Shown here piece after piece: positions 3,567 to 22,339 of a stretch of 36,511 nucleotides of DNA. Positions within the stretch are counted from its first letter, which is position 1; every line of letters starts with the position of its first letter. Origin of the DNA: a virus; the IMG/VR virus record IMGVR_UViG_3300006072_000014, positions 1 through 36,511 of that record; one strand, 5' to 3'. The notes under the pieces are model-generated. The model had not been told where the DNA came from. It was given only the letters and a program-made list of their open reading frames with translations, and did not search any database. A program made the translations under genes and the position numbers.

Positions 3567-3949
3567 TTTACTTCTATTTCTTTGCCTGTAAATAATCGTA
3601 TTAGTTGCTGGAGTTGGTGGAGGTATTGGAAAGTACAAACTAATTGAAATTGCTCGTGTGAATATTCGTAAGTATAAATGTATAATAAACCATCATCTTC
3701 AAAAATAGCAACTAAATCAGTATCTCTGTCAATATTGTAATAACCATCTAAAAAACCGTATCTACTACCTCTATTTTCATTTTTAGAAATACTTTCAATC
3801 TTCCCCATAACCTCGGGCGTAATAGGGATAGGAGTAGGAAGTCTTTCGGGGTAATCAGAAATATACACTAAGTATTCGGCGGTTACTTTAAATCTTTCAC
3901 CACAAAGTCTATTCACCCAATCCCCTACCATTAAATTTAAGTTGCTCAT
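3563..3949 (-). CDS. GDWV/YLHQLQ-family hypothetical protein
   Basis: A 128-residue protein starting MSNLNLMVGDWVNR. The longer frame to 3994 is rejected because it overlaps the small upstream gene and the ATG at 3949 has the usual AATT-ATG context. The GDWV opening, the PIPITPEVM segment and the ending YLHQLQQLIRLFTGKEIEVK mark a very widespread but uncharacterised family of Bacteroidota phages and mobile elements. Its beta-rich first half and helical tail contain no catalytic motif that I can identify. The stop overlaps the next gene (ATGA). Confidence 0.75.
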   Translation of the reverse strand: MSNLNLMVGDWVNRLCGERFKVTAEYLVYISDYPERLPTPIPITPEVMGKIESISKNENRGSRYGFLDGYYNIDRDTDLVAIFEDDGLLYIYTYEYSHEQFQLVCTFQYLHQLQQLIRLFTGKEIEVK

Positions 3950-11538: not shown

Positions 11539-12006
11539 ATGAAAATATACACTACAACAGACAAGTTATTGCAAGACATTTGCGACATTTTCAACACGCC
11601 TATTAAGCTAATTAAATGTAAGTCCCGAGAGGCGCAATTAGTTAAAGTTAGACATTACTATTTTTACTTCGCTCACTATTACTATCACTTTACTTTAAAG
11701 TGTATAGGCAAAGAAGTTGGTAACCGTGCCCACACAACAGTAATAAACGGCAGGCAAAGGATTATGAAATTAATAGAGGCTAGAGATAGTATTGTGCTAA
11801 CCGATGTAAACGCTATCAAACAAGCCTTAGAGATTACCGATAACTTAACCTTAGATTATAGCGGACTAATAGATTTGAACAAACAGCTATTAGAACGTAT
11901 AAAGGATTTGAAAAAAGAAGCGATTACCCTTAGTCACGAAAACTTAAAGTTAAAGTACGACTTGAATTATCAAAAGAAACTAAACATTTCCCTTTATGCA
12001 AAATAA
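11539..12006 (+). CDS. DnaA domain-IV-like DNA-binding protein
   Basis: A 155-residue protein whose residues about 27-75 match the C-terminal DNA-binding domain of DnaA. It has S-R-E-A-Q-L-V-K-V-R-H-Y-Y (replacing the R-x-x-V-x-x-R-x-x-A-M-Y helix), then IGKEVGNRAHTTVINGRQRI, equivalent to the DnaA signature G-[GR]-R-D-H-[ST]-T-V. The ATPase domain of DnaA is absent. The C-terminal half is a coiled coil (about 105-145). Such proteins may bind a phage origin or host DnaA boxes. It stands upstream of the replication helicases and the prim-pol gene. The last 11 bases overlap the next gene. Confidence 0.75.
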   Translation: MKIYTTTDKLLQDICDIFNTPIKLIKCKSREAQLVKVRHYYFYFAHYYYHFTLKCIGKEVGNRAHTTVINGRQRIMKLIEARDSIVLTDVNAIKQALEITDNLTLDYSGLIDLNKQLLERIKDLKKEAITLSHENLKLKYDLNYQKKLNISLYAK

Positions 12007-12332: not shown

Positions 12333-12340
12333 TATATTTG
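12333..12340 (+). promoter_or_regulatory. Bacteroidota -7 promoter box TATATTTG before structured leader A
   Basis: TATATTTG fits TAnnTTTG, with TTG at 12315-12317 as a possible -33 element. Transcription would start around 12345, just ahead of the first hairpin of leader A. Confidence 0.6.
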
Positions 12341-12350
12341 CAAAAGTTAA

Positions 12351-12434
12351 AACGTTGGCGGACGTTATTAATTATTAATTTATTTAACCTTAATGGGGGA
12401 TGTGCCGCTACACTGAACCCGCTAAGGTTTTTTT
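12351..12434 (+). promoter_or_regulatory. structured leader A: kissing hairpins with terminator-like stem
   Basis: Hairpin 1 is AACGT (12351-12355)/ACGTT (12362-12366) with loop TGGCGG. Hairpin 2 has an outer stem AACCTTA (12386-12392)/TAAGGTT (12423-12429) followed by a T-run to 12434. Inside are GGG (12395-12397)/CCC (12418-12420), a GGAT/TGAA internal loop and GTG/CAC closing loop CCGCTA (12405-12410). Loop 1 and loop 2 can pair over all six bases (one G-T wobble). The element ends 12 bases before the helicase-methyltransferase ATG. Termination control or a small RNA are both possible. Confidence 0.65.
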
Positions 12435-12446
12435 AATTTAAAAAAA

Positions 12447-14951
12447 ATGGAAGATTACAAAGAGTTTTTAAAGCAGAAAGTAGTAATAGCCGAAAACTTC
12501 GGTATTGATACATCTGAAATTAAGCTAACAAAAAAGCTATTCCCACACCAAAAGGATATAGTAAATTTTTGTTTAGAAGGTGGGAGGCGTGCGATATTTG
12601 CTAGCTTTGGTTTAGGTAAAACATTTATGCAATTAGAAATTGCAAAGCAGTTAATTAAAATCTACAAAAAACCGTTTCTTATCTGTTGCCCTTTGGGCGT
12701 TGCTGGTGAATTTAAACGAGATAATGATAAGTTAAAAACAGGCTTAAAAATATCCTACATTAAAGACACCGATAATATAGAAAGCTATGAACCTCAAATA
12801 TACCTAACCAACTACGAACGTGTAAGAATGGGAGATATAGATGCTGAAAAATTTTGCGGCGTTTCATTTGATGAAGCTAGTATTTTGCGTAACCTACAAA
12901 CGGAAACTACACAAACGGTTTTACATTATTTCAGAAAAATAAACTTTCGCTTTGTAGCAACTGCAACCCCTACACCCAATGATTTTATAGAAATACTTAA
13001 CTATGCAGATTATTTAGGAGTAATATCTAGAGGTCACGCTTTAACTAGATTTTTTCAACGGGATAGTCAAAAAGCAGGTCAGCTAAAACTTTACGAAAAC
13101 AAGAAAAAAGAATTTTGGCAATGGGTTTCTACATGGGCTGCTTTTATTAATACCCCTGCAGATTTAGGTTATGATTCAACTGGGTATGATATGCCACCTA
13201 TTAATATTGTAGAACATTGTATATCTTACGATATTAAAGAACAACCTTTAAATAAATGGGGTGAAGCTATTTTATTTAAGGATTTAAGTAAGTCTTTATT
13301 AGAGGTATCAAAAGAAAAAAGAGATAGCCTTTACGCTCGTATTAATAAGGCAACAGAAATAGCTGAAAGTATCGAAGGTAATGTTATTATATGGCATCAC
13401 TTAGAAGCCGAAAGAGCTTTACTAGAAAGTAATTTTAAGGGTACTAATTACGCATCCGTTTTTGGTAGTTTACCAAATGATAAAAAAGAAGATTTGTTGA
13501 TTGGTTTTAGTGAAGGGAAATATAAATATTTATTAACTAAACCTAAAATAGCTGGAAGTGGGTGCAACTTTCAAGATGCTTCAAGCGATATGATATTTGC
13601 AGGTATAGATTATAAATTCAACGATTTTATACAAGCAATACATAGACAGTATCGTTTTGGGCAAAAAAATGTAGTTAATGTTCATATTGTTTATACCGAA
13701 AACGAATATGAGGTTATGAAAACATTAAAAGAAAAGTGGGCGAAACATATAGAATTAAATAATCAAATGATTGAATTAGTAAAAGTAAACGGGTTAAATT
13801 CAAATTTAATAAAATCACAAATGGAAAGACAGATATTTGCAAATGGTCGTAAAATGATATACGACAATGTTACAGTTTATAACAATGATACGGTGACAGT
13901 TCACGCCGATAAAAAAGAGATGCCCGATAATTCAGTGGATATGATTTTAACATCTATTCCATTTGGTGACCATTACGAATATAGCGACAACTATAACGAC
14001 TTTGGTCATAATCACGGTAACGAAAACTTTTTTAAACAAATGGACTTTCTTACACCTAATTTACTAAGGGTATTAAAAGCAGGTAGAATCGCGGCTATTC
14101 ACGTTAAAGACCGTATCCGATACAGCTATCAAAATGGCACTTCTTTTACTACAATATCTGATTTTAGCGGGCAGACGGTGCAACATTTTTTAAAGCACGG
14201 GTTTTATCTTATGGGTAAGATAACTGTTACTACTGATGTTGTTGCAGAAAACAATCAAACGTATAGATTAGGATGGAGTGAACAATGTAAGGATGCAAGT
14301 AAAATGGGCGTAGGATTGCCCGAATATGTTTTATTATTTAGAAAATCACCGAGCGAAATGAATAACGCTTATGGTGATTATCCCGTGACAAAAGAAAAAA
14401 CAGATTACAAAAAAAGCCTTTGGCAGTTAGATGCACACGCATATCAACGCAGCTCTGGAGATAGATTTATGACAAAAGAAGAACTTGAAAAAGTAGAAGT
14501 TAAAAAGATAGTATCTGCTTGGAAGAAATTAAACACAACAGCTATTTACGACTTTAAAGAACACCTTCGTATTTGTGAAGATTTGGACGAAATGGAAAAG
14601 CTATCTTCTATATTTATGACTTTGCCCGTGCATAGTAATAATGATATGGTGTGGACGGATATAAACCGTATGAATACATTAAACACAAAACAAGCTAATA
14701 GTAAAAAAGAAAAACACATTTGCCCTTTGCAGTTTGATATTATTGAGCGGTTAATTAATCGTTATACTATGGAAGGTGAAATAGTAGATGACCCATTTGG
14801 TGGGTTGTTTTCAACGGCTTACAAAGCTATTGAAATGAAACGTAAGTCAGTATCGGTAGAGTTGAATAGTGAGTACTTTAATGATGGTATTTATTATCTT
14901 AAAGCTATGATGCACAAACTTTCAGTACCTACTTTATTTGATTTAGTTTAA
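12447..14951 (+). CDS. SNF2-like helicase fused to DNA methyltransferase
   Basis: An 834-residue fusion. Residues about 1-460 are an SF2/SNF2-type ATPase: Walker A F-G-L-G-K-T (54-59), a D-E-A-S box (about 147-150), V-A-T-A-T-P-T-P (about 172-179) and motif VI H-R-Q-Y-R-F-G-Q (about 397-404). After a linker comes an amino-methyltransferase domain with catalytic T-S-I-P-F (about 502-506) in place of D/N-P-P-Y, and the S-adenosylmethionine motif D-P-F-G-G (about 781-785) near the C-terminus. This order (catalytic motif first) is the beta-type order. The catalytic motif has Ser-Ile-Pro-Phe, as in some m4C or m6A enzymes. No restriction endonuclease is adjacent, so it may protect phage DNA or couple remodelling with methylation. 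It is preceded by leader A. Confidence 0.85.
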   Translation: MEDYKEFLKQKVVIAENFGIDTSEIKLTKKLFPHQKDIVNFCLEGGRRAIFASFGLGKTFMQLEIAKQLIKIYKKPFLICCPLGVAGEFKRDNDKLKTGLKISYIKDTDNIESYEPQIYLTNYERVRMGDIDAEKFCGVSFDEASILRNLQTETTQTVLHYFRKINFRFVATATPTPNDFIEILNYADYLGVISRGHALTRFFQRDSQKAGQLKLYENKKKEFWQWVSTWAAFINTPADLGYDSTGYDMPPINIVEHCISYDIKEQPLNKWGEAILFKDLSKSLLEVSKEKRDSLYARINKATEIAESIEGNVIIWHHLEAERALLESNFKGTNYASVFGSLPNDKKEDLLIGFSEGKYKYLLTKPKIAGSGCNFQDASSDMIFAGIDYKFNDFIQAIHRQYRFGQKNVVNVHIVYTENEYEVMKTLKEKWAKHIELNNQMIELVKVNGLNSNLIKSQMERQIFANGRKMIYDNVTVYNNDTVTVHADKKEMPDNSVDMILTSIPFGDHYEYSDNYNDFGHNHGNENFFKQMDFLTPNLLRVLKAGRIAAIHVKDRIRYSYQNGTSFTTISDFSGQTVQHFLKHGFYLMGKITVTTDVVAENNQTYRLGWSEQCKDASKMGVGLPEYVLLFRKSPSEMNNAYGDYPVTKEKTDYKKSLWQLDAHAYQRSSGDRFMTKEELEKVEVKKIVSAWKKLNTTAIYDFKEHLRICEDLDEMEKLSSIFMTLPVHSNNDMVWTDINRMNTLNTKQANSKKEKHICPLQFDIIERLINRYTMEGEIVDDPFGGLFSTAYKAIEMKRKSVSVELNSEYFNDGIYYLKAMMHKLSVPTLFDLV

Positions 14952-15003: not shown

Positions 15004-15011
15004 TATATTTG
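15004..15011 (+). promoter_or_regulatory. Bacteroidota -7 promoter box TATATTTG before structured leader B
   Basis: TATATTTG, identical to the boxes before leaders A and C. A T-rich segment with TTG at 14989-14991 is near but too close for the usual -33 distance. Transcription would begin near 15016, at the base of the first hairpin of leader B. Confidence 0.6.
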
Positions 15012-15014
15012 TAG

Positions 15015-15116
15015 CGTAGTGTAGCACCTACGATTAAGAACTAATTAATGGCTTTAAAAGGGATGGTGTACCTGTTTTACAGGGTGCTATTACATCATCC
15101 ACTTTAAGGCTTTTTT
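15015..15116 (+). promoter_or_regulatory. structured leader B: hairpin plus long terminator-like hairpin
   Basis: Hairpin 1 is CGTAG (15015-15019)/CTACG (15028-15032) with loop TGTAGCAC. A 20-base arm (15051-15070) pairs with 15091-15110 with two mismatches and a few wobbles, followed by T6 (15111-15116). Inside it CCTG (15071-15074)/CAGG (15080-15083) makes an inner stem and leaves GTGCTA (15084-15089) unpaired. GTGCTA is the exact complement of TAGCAC (15022-15027) in loop 1. The architecture repeats that of leaders A and C with unrelated primary sequence. The ATG of the helicase gene follows 5 bases after the T-run segment. Confidence 0.6.
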
Positions 15117-15121
15117 ATTTT

Positions 15122-16573
15122 ATGTCATCATACGAACTTTACTCTTATCAAAAGAAGTTTAAAGAAAATATACGGTCATCGCTTGCCAAAAGTAAAAAGG
15201 TAATTGCTTGTGCTGCCACAGGAAGTGGCAAGACTAAAACATTTCTTTCAATGGTGAAAGATGCTTTAGAAAAGAAAACAACCGTTTTAATAATTTCCGA
15301 AACATCAAAGATTTATAAACAAATACATGAAGAGCAAGGCGATTGCGTAACTATTGGAGACGGGATAAAGTTTGTAGATATTGAAGTAGGCAAATGCTAT
15401 GTGGCAATGGCTCAAACATTAGTAAGAAGGGAATTTATAATATCACAGTTTCAAAACTTTGGTTCAAAACTTTTAATTATAAATGACGAGTGCCACGTCG
15501 GCACGTCTACAAAATTATTGCAACAATTAACAGAAGCCTATCTTATTGGTTTTACAGCTACACCCGACTATAGAGTAGCAAAACATCTACCACTTTTATA
15601 CAATGATATTGTAATTGGAGCGCAACCGCAGGAACTTTTAGAGGGTGGTTATTTGTCACCATATTACCATTATGAAAGACAGGCAGCAGATTTAAGCGGA
15701 TTAAAAAAAGATAGCAAAGGGGAATTTTCAGAGGCATCTCAATTTGATGCTTTTAATAAACCGAAAGTATTTGCAGGGCTTCACGAAGATTTGCAAAAAT
15801 ATCATAATAAAAAAACAATAGTTTATTGTGCCTCAATAGTAGATTGTGCTGCTTTATCTCAAGAACTTAGAAACGTTGGCTTTGTCGTTTCAGAAGTACA
15901 TAGTAAAAATGAAAAGTCGGAAATTGAATTAAACCAATTTACTCATGGGGATGTTGATATTTGTGTTTCTGTTTCTGTATTAACAAAAGGATGGGATTTT
16001 AAACCAATAGACTTAGTAATACTTAGACGGGCTACAACTTCACTAGCTTTATACTGTCAAATGGTTGGGCGTGGCGCAAGAGTTCACGATGGGAAAGAAC
16101 GCTTTACCGTCCTTGATTACGGCGGTAACGCATCCCGTCACGGGATATGGAACTTTGAATTTGATTGGGCTAAAATGTGGAATAAACCACCTAAGAAAAA
16201 GAAAGACGGAGTAGCACCAATTAAAGAATGCCCTAAATGTTTTTTAATACTTGCACCCCGTGTTATGACTTGCCCAGAATGCGGACACGAATTTCAGTCA
16301 AAAGAAAAAGAATACGTTGAAGGCAAGTTAGTAGAGGTTACAGAAAGCTATAATAAACTTAGGGGAAAATATATTGCAGACCTTACACCGATTGAATTAG
16401 CCGACTATGCTAAGATAACAAATAAGAAACCTTTTGCAATAAGAGTAGCGAAAGCAAAGCAAGATGCCCTATTTTTACAGTCTTTTGCGACTGCAATGGG
16501 CTACCACAGCGGATGGGTTAAACATCAAGATATAAGTGAACCACTAGAATTTTACAACATTAAAATTAAATAA
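15122..16573 (+). CDS. DEAD/DEAH-box helicase with C-terminal zinc ribbon
   Basis: A 483-residue SF2 helicase. It shows Walker A A-A-T-G-S-G-K-T (about residues 31-38), N-D-E-C-H (about 120-124), G-F-T-A-T-P (about 142-147), a second RecA-like domain with S-V-L-T-K-G-W-D and motif VI Q-M-V-G-R-G-A-R (about 317-324). A zinc ribbon with CPKC and CPEC pairs (about 368-386) follows, then a helical tail. It resembles the ATPase found in phage replication modules and in type III restriction or UvrB-like helicases. It sits 170 bases after the helicase-methyltransferase and directly abuts the prim-pol gene, so a replication role is likely. Confidence 0.85.
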   Translation: MSSYELYSYQKKFKENIRSSLAKSKKVIACAATGSGKTKTFLSMVKDALEKKTTVLIISETSKIYKQIHEEQGDCVTIGDGIKFVDIEVGKCYVAMAQTLVRREFIISQFQNFGSKLLIINDECHVGTSTKLLQQLTEAYLIGFTATPDYRVAKHLPLLYNDIVIGAQPQELLEGGYLSPYYHYERQAADLSGLKKDSKGEFSEASQFDAFNKPKVFAGLHEDLQKYHNKKTIVYCASIVDCAALSQELRNVGFVVSEVHSKNEKSEIELNQFTHGDVDICVSVSVLTKGWDFKPIDLVILRRATTSLALYCQMVGRGARVHDGKERFTVLDYGGNASRHGIWNFEFDWAKMWNKPPKKKKDGVAPIKECPKCFLILAPRVMTCPECGHEFQSKEKEYVEGKLVEVTESYNKLRGKYIADLTPIELADYAKITNKKPFAIRVAKAKQDALFLQSFATAMGYHSGWVKHQDISEPLEFYNIKIK

Positions 16574-19728: not shown

Positions 19729-19851
19729 ATGGCAAAAGCGATAGGCGTTACACCCGAAGCACTTTGTCGAATGGAAAGCGGCAAGTATTGGATTAACTCT
19801 AAGAACTTATTTGCAATATTGGAAATGCTTAATATTAAAATACTAGAATGA
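19729..19851 (+). CDS. 40-residue HTH (Cro/CI-like) micro-regulator
   Basis: A short frame reading MAKAIGVTPEALCRMESGKY and continuing to NLFAILEMLNIKILE. This corresponds to the second half of an XRE/Cro-type helix-turn-helix: A-x-x-x-G-V-T, L-x-R-M-E-S-G-K, then L-x-x-I-L-E-x-L-N-I. The first helix of a full domain is missing, so it is either an unusually small DNA-binding protein or the remaining piece of one. Its own promoter box lies six bases upstream and its TGA overlaps the next ATG (ATGA), which argues that it is expressed and coupled to the methyltransferase. Confidence 0.65.
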   Translation: MAKAIGVTPEALCRMESGKYWINSKNLFAILEMLNIKILE

Positions 19852-21068
19852 TTTACAAAAATATAACAGATATTAAGACAAACCCAAAAAATCCTCGTGT
19901 AATTAAAGATGAAAACTTTGCTAAATTAGTTAAGTCATTACAGGACTTTCCAGAAATGCTTGAAAAACGCCCATTAGTTTGCTTTACTGATGTAGATGGT
20001 AAAGTAGTAGTACTTGGGGGTAATATGCGACTAAAAGCTGCAAAAGAATGCGGAATGAAGCAACTGCCTATTATACTTGCAGATGATTGGACAGAAGAAC
20101 AAAAAAATGAGTTTTTGATTAAAGATAACGTAGGATTTGGTGATTGGAATTGGGAAGAAATTACAGCAGATTGGGATGTAGAACAATTAGGAGAATGGGG
20201 GTTAGATATTCCTGCTGACTTTTCTGAAGAAGAAGTATTAGAAGCGCAAGAAGATGAATTTAACGGTGTGCCACCAAAAGAGCCCTATACAGTTTTAGGT
20301 GATTTATATGAGATTGGAGATCATAGATTGTTGTGTGGTGATAGTACTCAAACTGATACTTTTGAAAAGTTGATGCAAGGAGAATTTGCAGACATGGTTG
20401 TTACTGACCCACCGTATAATGTAGCCTACCAAGGAAGTAATGGTCTGAAAATTGAAAACGATAATATGGAAGATTCAAAATTTTATCAATTTCTTTATGA
20501 TTTTTTTACCTCTTGTAATACATTTTTAAAAAAAGGGTCTGCTTGGTATGTTTGGCACGCCGACATAGAAGGTATTAATTTTAGAACTGCATTCAAAAAT
20601 GCGGGGATAAAGCTTTCTTCATGTTTAATTTGGAATAAAAACGTTTTAGTAATGGGAAGGGGTGACTATCATTGGAAGCATGAACCTTGTTTATATGGTT
20701 GGAAAGAAGGCGCAGCGCACAAATGGTATTTCGACAGAAAGCAAACAACAGTTATTAATTTTGATAAACCACAAAGAAACGGAGAACACCCTACAATGAA
20801 GCCAATTGGATTGTTTGCTTATCAAATAGGGAATAGTTCAAAAAGCGGCGACATTGTAATAGATGCTTTTGGAGGCAGCGGAACTACTATGGTTGCTTGC
20901 GACCAATTAAAAAGAAAAGCAAGATTAGTAGAATTCGACCCAAAATATTGCGATGTGATAGTGGCAAGAATGATAAAATTGAACAAAGAAAGCGGAACGG
21001 GCAGCAGCTTAGTGATAAAGCGGAACGGGCAGCAGCTTAGTGATAAAGCGGAACGGGCAGCAGCTTAG
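19848..21068 (+). CDS. ParB-like domain fused to DNA methyltransferase
   Basis: The 406-residue protein begins with a ParB/Srx-like nuclease-fold domain (N-P-K-N-P-R, about 12-17; G-G-N-M-R-L-K-A, about 57-64) and continues into a beta-type DNA amino-methyltransferase. Catalytic T-D-P-P-Y-N is at about 186-191, and the S-adenosylmethionine motif D-A-F-G-G-S-G-T-T at about 337-345, followed by L-V-E-F-D-P. These fusions are common in phages, often as orphan methylases. The C-terminus runs through three copies of a 28-bp repeat in three different frames and stops within the third. Removing one copy would give the ending SDKEVEAFIENTNG and a stop at 21109, five bases before the next ATG, which is probably the original end. 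Confidence 0.85.
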   Translation: MIYKNITDIKTNPKNPRVIKDENFAKLVKSLQDFPEMLEKRPLVCFTDVDGKVVVLGGNMRLKAAKECGMKQLPIILADDWTEEQKNEFLIKDNVGFGDWNWEEITADWDVEQLGEWGLDIPADFSEEEVLEAQEDEFNGVPPKEPYTVLGDLYEIGDHRLLCGDSTQTDTFEKLMQGEFADMVVTDPPYNVAYQGSNGLKIENDNMEDSKFYQFLYDFFTSCNTFLKKGSAWYVWHADIEGINFRTAFKNAGIKLSSCLIWNKNVLVMGRGDYHWKHEPCLYGWKEGAAHKWYFDRKQTTVINFDKPQRNGEHPTMKPIGLFAYQIGNSSKSGDIVIDAFGGSGTTMVACDQLKRKARLVEFDPKYCDVIVARMIKLNKESGTGSSLVIKRNGQQLSDKAERAAA

Positions 21069-21532: not shown

Positions 21533-21540
21533 TATATTTG
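21533..21540 (+). promoter_or_regulatory. Bacteroidota -7 promoter box TATATTTG before structured leader C
   Basis: TATATTTG, identical to the boxes at 12333 and 15004. TTG at 21507-21509 is a possible but distant -33 element. Transcription would start near 21545, at the foot of the first hairpin of leader C. Confidence 0.6.
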
Positions 21541-21543
21541 CAA

Positions 21544-21624
21544 TGTAGCGGTAACTACAATTTTAAACTTATTTTTAAAATGTTAAGGGGATGTGTTACC
21601 GCACTGAACCTTAACATTTTTTTA
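21544..21624 (+). promoter_or_regulatory. structured leader C: kissing hairpins with intrinsic terminator
   Basis: Hairpin 1 is TGTAG (21544-21548)/CTACA (21555-21559) with loop CGGTAA. Hairpin 2 is AATGTTAAGG (21579-21588)/CCTTAACATT (21609-21618) followed by a T-run, a textbook intrinsic terminator shape. Inside are the GGAT/TGAA internal loop and a GTG/CAC stem closing loop TTACCG (21596-21601). Loop 2 is the exact complement of loop 1, extendable to 8 bp. The GGAT-GTG-N6-CAC-TGAA core is shared with leader A while both loops have changed together. The ATG of the HNH gene is eight bases past the T-run. Confidence 0.7.
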
Positions 21625-21631
21625 TTTAATT

Positions 21632-22339
21632 ATGCCAAGAGTAAAAATTTATACAGAAGATGAATCAAAAAAAAGAAAAGCTGAAAGCAAAAAAAGATGG
21701 GCTGAAAAAAATAAAGGGTACGGTAAATTGCATTATGAAAAAAATAAAGAAATTTATATAGAAAGGTCTAAAAATAGACATAAAAAAATAATGGCATTAA
21801 AAAAACCTAAAATATATATTTCTAATAAAGAAAGGAGTAAATTATGGTGTGAAAAAAACAAAGAAAAACTTATTCAATACAAAAAAGAAAATTCCGAAAA
21901 AATTAAAAATTACATGAAAGAATGGCGTTTTAAAAACGATGAGCAATTAAAAAAATATTCAATTGATTACAATAAAAACAATAGACCAATAATAAGAGAA
22001 AGCAGAAAAAAACAAAAACAAAATAACCCATTAATGAAGCTATCTGACAATCTTAGATGTAGAATTAGTTATGCTTTTAAACATTCATCATATTATAAAA
22101 GTGAAAAAACAATAGTTTTATTAGGTTGTTCAATTATTGAGGCTAAAAAACATATTGAGTTAAAATTTAAAGTTGGGATGAGTTGGGATAATTATAATTT
22201 TAGAGTTTGGCATATAGACCATATAATCCCCTTATCATCAGCTAAAAGTGAAGAAGAATTAAAAAAACTATGTCATTACACTAACTTGCAGCCTCTTTGG
22301 GCTTTAGAAAATTTAATAAAAGGAAATAAAATTCTATAA
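21632..22339 (+). CDS. HNH endonuclease (homing-type) inserted in packaging genes
   Basis: The 235-residue protein ends with an HNH nuclease domain: W-H-I-D-H-I-I-P-L-S-S (about 193-203), the C-H-Y-T-N-L-Q-P-L-W (about 217-226) segment and N-L-I-K-G-N-K at the end, all typical of phage HNH enzymes. The first 110 residues are very Lys-rich with a repeated K-x-x-W-x-E-K-N-K-E-K pattern (about residues 21-30, 67-78), possibly DNA-contacting helices. Base composition is more A-rich than that of the neighbours, suggesting later arrival. It lies between DUF5681 and terminase large subunit genes and has its own promoter and structured leader, as expected of a free-standing mobile endonuclease. Confidence 0.85.
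   Translation: MPRVKIYTEDESKKRKAESKKRWAEKNKGYGKLHYEKNKEIYIERSKNRHKKIMALKKPKIYISNKERSKLWCEKNKEKLIQYKKENSEKIKNYMKEWRFKNDEQLKKYSIDYNKNNRPIIRESRKKQKQNNPLMKLSDNLRCRISYAFKHSSYYKSEKTIVLLGCSIIEAKKHIELKFKVGMSWDNYNFRVWHIDHIIPLSSAKSEEELKKLCHYTNLQPLWALENLIKGNKIL

Follow-up and report, generated by a model that had tools for sequence, protein, structure and literature searches.

Many early operons of Bacteroidota phages have, right behind the promoter, a leader RNA of the kind found ahead of an HNH endonuclease gene in the analysed viral DNA (36,511 nucleotides, hereafter the window); this leader opens with a hairpin, the loop of which complements the loop of its own terminator hairpin. This anatomy, together with a conserved and covarying loop–loop pairing (the kiss), was shown by sequence comparison across unrelated scaffolds. 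On the same basis, the leader, termed leader C, probably belongs to a class of cis-acting, probably regulatory RNA leaders in Bacteroidota phages. The best explanation of the whole would be a cis-acting attenuator whose terminator docks onto the 5' hairpin of the same RNA, an account that we consider moderately probable.

Leader C and its neighbours in the window

The whole of leader C spans window positions 21533–21632 on the plus strand, from the promoter to the ATG of an endonuclease-VII-like HNH gene. The sequence of its Bacteroidota-type −7 element, TATATTTG, occupies 21533–21540, and hairpin 1 (21544–21559; sequence and RNAfold) has a 5-bp stem, TGTAG/CTACA, and the loop CGGTAA at 21549–21554. 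Hairpin 2, the terminator stem, lies at 21577–21620 according to RNAfold, model R1 (59.5 bits) and pair counts. From 21577 to 21623 the leader reads AAAATGTTAAGG-GGAT-GTG-TTACCG-CAC-TGAA-CCTTAACAT-T7; GGAT (21589–21592) and TGAA (21605–21608) form an internal loop, the inner stem GTG/CAC carries the loop TTACCG (21596–21601), and the run of seven T's (21617–21623) adjoins the stem. The start codon of the HNH gene (21632–22339, plus strand, 235 aa; phrog_1035 endonuclease VII, E 8e-9) is located at 21632, at most 9 nt past the T-run. The minimum free energy structure calculated with RNAfold consists of hairpin 1 and hairpin 2 (−20.9 kcal/mol, z −3.6). The sequence check showed that the two loops are exact complements, as the first-pass annotation had stated. 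Its extension of the pairing to 8 bp (GCGGTAAC/GTTACCGC) is likewise present but would consume the closing pair of each hairpin. From the order of promoter, terminator and gene, it is plausible that leader C controls transcription of the nuclease. The HNH gene is flanked by a DUF5681 (small-terminase-like) gene and the terminase large subunit gene (Pfam DUF5681, Terminase_6N). Tandem repeats of about 30 bases (ggcagcagcttagtgataaagcggaac) were also observed at 21000–21068, at the 3' end of a methyltransferase gene (19848–21068).

Two further leaders are present on the plus strand of the window. Leader A has the promoter element TATATTTG at 12333–12340, hairpin 1 (AACGT-TGGCGG-ACGTT) at 12351–12366, and hairpin 2 at 12386–12430 (model R1, 69.5 bits), with the loop CCGCTA at 12405–12410 and a T-run behind it. 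The gene after it starts at 12447 and encodes a DNA helicase/methyltransferase (phrog_16 DNA helicase, E 7.6e-101; N6_N4_Mtase). The core GGATGTG-N6-CACTGAA, reported earlier as identical in leaders A and C, was found to be exactly common to both, with two occurrences in the window (12398 and 21589). The loop complementarity is perfect in leader C, whereas the loops of leader A (TGGCGG/CCGCTA) form six pairs including one G-U.

Leader B (15004–15114) is divergent and was recovered by a promoter-requiring scan. Its promoter, TATATTTG, is at 15004–15011, hairpin 1 (CGTAG-TGTAGCAC-CTACG) is at 15015–15032, and a branched terminator hairpin containing GGTGCTA begins at about 15050 and is followed by a T-run. 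The kiss is a 7-bp Watson-Crick complement, TAGCACC/GGTGCTA, the fold has −32.6 kcal/mol with a z of −3.6, and a ResIII helicase gene starts close behind at 15122. GGAT/TGAA is absent, yet the promoter, the hairpin, the 7-bp kiss, the T-run and the near ATG are all present. As a GGAT/TGAA leader from another phage (L511) also stands ahead of a ResIII helicase gene, leader B is probably a diverged cognate of the GGAT/TGAA leaders.

Two side observations concern these loci. Hairpin 1 of leader C (GTAGCGG, 21545–21551) is complementary over 7 bp to the terminator loop of leader A (CCGCTAC, 12405–12411) and fits it better than leader A's own hairpin 1 does (6 bp, one G-U), which may be cross-talk or a trace of common origin. 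A gene for a small protein resembling, as judged from sequence, the DnaA C-terminal DNA-binding domain is frequently found one or two genes ahead of a leader, in the window (11539–12006; weak phrogs matches only) as well as in L101, L158, L293 and L511.

Loop–loop pairing across the leader family

A loose scan for loop–loop complementarity near T-runs returned about four matches per shuffled window; thus, leader C alone is not beyond chance. When the scan also demanded a TAnnTTTG promoter, leaders A, B and C were found in the window, and 12 sites were obtained in 0.81 Mb of phage sequence compared with 2 in 1.6 Mb of shuffled sequence. In IMG/VR, the exact-core pattern retrieved, besides copies from phages resembling that of the window, a single independent leader, L053, which has different loops (GCTGCCA/TGGCAGC) and a T-run. 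Relaxed patterns then enlarged the set to at least 23 distinct leaders, each combining a long outer stem with a T-run. These patterns left the loops, hairpin 1, the outer stem and the promoter free and fixed GGATG and CTGAA, so that the invariance of these letters is partly by design. GGAT and TGAA flank a 3-bp inner stem and a loop of 6–8 nt in window leaders A and C and in 21 other motif-found leaders, and the inner stem varies from GTG/CAC to GGG/CCC, GCG/CGC, GGC/GCC, GTC/GAC and GAC/GTC. Two other explanations of the core were rejected. A conserved upstream reading frame from the ATG within GGATG was dismissed because loop lengths of 6, 7 and 8 shift the frame, and inspection dismissed a k-turn, as tandem G-A pairs are present and the 3-nt bulge is absent.

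In the motif-found set, the loops of hairpin 1 and hairpin 2 pair over at least 6 bp, with differing sequences, in 23 of 23 leaders, whereas 2,000 permutations of the loops among the leaders gave a mean of 2.4 and a maximum of 9 of 23. Hairpin 1 was chosen partly for complementarity in this count; when it was taken blind from the RNAfold minimum free energy structure, at least 5 bp were obtained in 16 of 23. Covariation was evaluated with a gapless alignment, A2, of 13 leaders with 6-nt loops and a trimmed linker. All 78 of its 78 kissing-helix cells are paired, although these cells are not independent events because some leaders are close relatives, and two-sided changes occur at all six pairs. 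The covariation score of the kissing helix was 0.82, compared with 0.21 after shuffling and at most 0.18 in slid controls, in which 27–41% of cells were paired. Moreover, two-sided changes were found at all four pairs counted in hairpin 1 (13 leaders), and the outer and inner stems of the leaders also covary.

The possibility that these loci are merely ordinary terminators with an unrelated upstream hairpin draws on the loose scan, by which single cases are not rare. The 23 kissing leaders against a permutation maximum of 9 are decisive against it, and covariation was seen in two independently gathered alignments. Accordingly, the chance explanation was refuted by the permutation and covariation tests, and we assign it a negligible probability. 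The real tertiary loop–loop contact claimed in the first-pass annotation is thus strongly supported by the kiss in all 23 leaders, the complete pairing of the alignment and the two-sided changes at each kissing pair. The annotation had held that homologous leaders losing complementarity would speak against the contact; complementarity is kept in all 23 motif-found leaders and likewise in leaders found through the downstream gene with the RNA motif unused.

TAnnTTTG, the Bacteroidota-type promoter element, occurs no more than 20 nt upstream of hairpin 1 in 15 of the 23 leaders, compared with 1–2% of background windows. In all 23 the stem is immediately followed by a T-run, and in 21 the ATG lies 1–13 nt past that run. 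The latter distance is nearer than attenuation needs, and it would suit translational control, in which hairpin 2 and the U-rich stretch would occupy the ribosome-binding region, and the spacing or accessibility of the AUG would be set by the kiss. Variants with weak T-runs, namely L528:3816 and leader 1 of Flavobacterium phage FCOV-S1, point in the same direction. However, a T-run behind the stem in every leader marks an intrinsic terminator and is unneeded for translation, and the ATG is further off in FL-1 and L170. Translational control is therefore considered unlikely. The L528 variant (3816–3833, GGAT-AT-CTCCCG-AT-TGAA) has a promoter and the kiss CGGGAG along with its weak T-run.

Orthologous leaders, downstream genes and distribution

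An RNA-blind test was based on relatives of the Lin1244-like replication protein, whose gene stands behind the leaders L523 and L549. Upstream of these relatives, 62 distinct regions were obtained. A leader is missing wherever the gene directly adjoins its neighbour, and a terminator-like hairpin precedes the ATG in 26 of the 62. The automatic scan detected kissing in 19 of these 26 regions, compared with 3–6 when the upstream part was shuffled. In five leaders (L688, L693, L696, L701 and L708) the kiss is present and the hairpin-1 loops are too long for the automatic scan, and in two of the 26 regions, L636 and L702, no kiss was found. The orthologous leaders keep the promoter, hairpin, terminator, T-run and ATG, and they place the kiss on different scaffolds, mostly with GGAT/TGAA absent. 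For example, L639 has a plain 8-bp terminator whose loop CCGCAAT matches ATTGCGG, and L642/L645 are branched, as is window leader B. In the L688–L708 subfamily, the scaffold is nearly constant while the kissing pairs are GTGAGAG/CTCTCAC, GTAGGAG/CTCCTAC, GTGGAAG/CTTCCAC and GTGGTAG/CTACCAC. After hand-trimming of its alignment to the stems and the 7-nt kiss, 70 of 70 cells are paired, with two-sided changes at 3 of 7 kissing pairs. Between hairpin 1 and the terminator, these leaders also carry a small third hairpin (AGGTTA...TAACCT type), and their loops are purine-rich in hairpin 1 and pyrimidine-rich in the terminator.

The conserved architecture with co-changing loops that was first noticed in leaders A and C thus extends far beyond them. 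Its GGAT-GTG-N6-CAC-TGAA scaffold, however, is shared by A and C as a trait of a subfamily only, as the inner stem varies and orthologous leaders do without GGAT/TGAA. Judging from the leaders compared, what does not vary is that the 5' hairpin kisses the terminator.

Behind four of the leaders lies an HNH nuclease gene (L085:2380–2682, L520:4581–5087, L536:3847–4377 and window 21632–22339); the other downstream genes encode replication initiators, primase-helicases, helicases and methyltransferases. Leader C does sit before an HNH endonuclease, as had been remarked, but this context belongs to the minority, as the gene behind most leaders is a replication gene. The HNH unit stands among structural genes in at least leader C and L085, and that of L520 comes immediately after a gene reading like a capsid protein. 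This reuse within late operons suggests that endonuclease genes carry or acquire an early-operon module of promoter and leader control.

Among cultured phages, leaders were found in Flavobacterium phages FCL-2, FCOV-S1 (two leaders with differing codes), VK48 and FL-1 and in Tenacibaculum phage JQ, in each case ahead of early or replication genes. FCL-2 and FCOV-S1/VK48 belong to one genus and have a leader at the same place, with unrelated codes (CATCCAC/GTGGATG vs GTAGAGA/TCTCTAC). Scans of Cellulophaga phi10:1 and phi46:1, Riemerella-type PJN03, FPSV-S1 and lotta8-1 gave no convincing leader, and the L101 leader as a nucleotide query against cultured phages gave nothing convincing. In 395 Bacteroidota genomes, model R1 found no host or prophage copy in a weak test with strict filters and 15 candidates scored each. 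A relaxed pattern matched in 82 of the same genomes, and none of the examined matches had the flanking stem; the whole-GTDB pattern scan gave 25 matches, none with the leader architecture. Within the limited sensitivity of these searches, this is consistent with phages of which most are not prophages.

Rfam gave no match at the gathering threshold in the window and none at E≤1 in seven leader loci. The architecture was not found described in the published literature, the supplementary tables of candidate-RNA papers lying outside the search, so that it may already have been detected without being named. Attenuators are known, and so are kissing loops; a covarying kiss between 5' hairpin and terminator on changing scaffolds matches no class described in the literature searched.

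Predicted action and comparison with known systems

Under the proposed mechanism, transcription would start at the Bacteroidota-type promoter, and the first few nucleotides of the transcript would fold into a hairpin. An intrinsic-terminator hairpin with a U-run would follow about 20–40 nt later, a few nucleotides before the start codon, and the 5'-hairpin loop would pair with its loop over 6–10 bp, which would tether the terminator to the 5' end of the transcript. The order of promoter, hairpin, terminator and gene points to attenuation by default; termination would then leave a short RNA of about 85–100 nt, the gene behind (replication proteins, helicase or HNH endonuclease) would be expressed by read-through, and the kiss would set the read-through frequency. 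As expected of an attenuator, a GC-containing stem with an adjoining T-run lies between the promoter and the start codon. No mutually exclusive antiterminator fold was found in leaders A, B and C, whose single-strand folds keep hairpin 2 and contain no competing helix; their linkers are AT-rich. No protein family is common to all nine leader-bearing phages compared (blastp E≤1e-4, nine incomplete genomes), which argues for RNA-only or host-factor action; a shared phage protein partner was rejected on this result. Loop lengths often match (6/6, 7/7, and 8/8 with one extra A), which suggests that the kiss is compatible with both hairpins and makes a terminating or stabilised state more likely for the kissed form. 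We thus lean slightly towards the kiss marking the terminating, stabilised state, relieved by read-through, rather than an antiterminator.

The functional product could instead be the terminated leader, a stable small RNA with the kiss as its knot, acting in trans as a decoy or in self-specific immunity; in the latter form, the loops of free leaders would pair with those of nascent leaders and the differing loop sequences would be a specificity code. Each leader of a phage does have its own code (window A/B/C; FCOV-S1 a/b), a 5'-terminal hairpin and a 3' terminator would protect such an RNA, and the 7-bp match of GTAGCGG in leader C with CCGCTAC in leader A makes cross-pairing possible. The replication operon of satellite phage P4 is reportedly controlled by an RNA–RNA interaction that causes early termination. 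However, complementarity in cis suffices for the covariation, no trans target was identified, and the loops are often short and repeatedly use one word (GTGCAG/CTGCAC in 5 of 23), which is poor as a specificity code. We regard action in trans as improbable, at about the level of translational control.

The leaders may constitute a new termination control by a tertiary contact between the 5' end of an RNA and its terminator. We give somewhat less than an even chance to the view that the class, defined by the rule that the loop of the 5'-terminal hairpin matches the terminator loop of its own operon, is an undescribed and widespread switch, sequence-free and self-addressed, through which replication and homing-endonuclease genes would be gated, each leader having a private code. 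With its changing loops and scaffolds, the class would escape sequence searches, and no Rfam family matched it. Gene timing in Bacteroidota phages is little known; a leader class ahead of replication operons would offer a first handle on it, and the leaders could be usable as orthogonal RNA parts.

The nearest functional precedent, by analogy, would be the put RNA of the lambdoid phage HK022, which suppresses downstream termination in cis through the zinc-binding domain of the polymerase beta' subunit (PMC9378689). Like put, the leaders are promoter-proximal, have two stem-loops in about 70–100 nt, and occur in early phage operons without a dedicated phage protein (PMC9378689); a folded leader might then bind the elongating RNA polymerase and confer resistance to its own and later terminators. 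However, put is described without loop–loop pairing, kissing loops receiving no mention, and without a terminal T-run of its own (PMC9378689). Conserved polymerase contacts would moreover predict conserved sequence, and the scaffolds differ completely between subfamilies. Host group and sequence are unrelated, and antitermination, described for put, would be hypothetical for the leaders. A put-like action of the leaders is accordingly considered very unlikely.

The attenuator reading places the leaders beside attenuators and riboswitch expression platforms, which likewise have a terminator between the promoter and the start codon of the regulated gene. They differ in that no alternative antiterminator helix was found in the three window leaders folded, the loop–loop helix can coexist with the terminator, and there is no conserved ligand pocket. 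Pairing between RNAs also governs early termination upstream of replication genes in pT181-type attenuation and with the P4 immunity RNA. Those systems use a separate antisense or immunity RNA, and none was identified for the leaders. The kissing complexes of ColE1 RNAI/RNAII and TAR/TAR* consist of fully complementary hairpin loops of 6–7 nt and form between two molecules. The 6/6 and 7/7 leaders have fully complementary loops of the same kind; unlike in those complexes, both loops lie in one transcript, and one of them is in the terminator.
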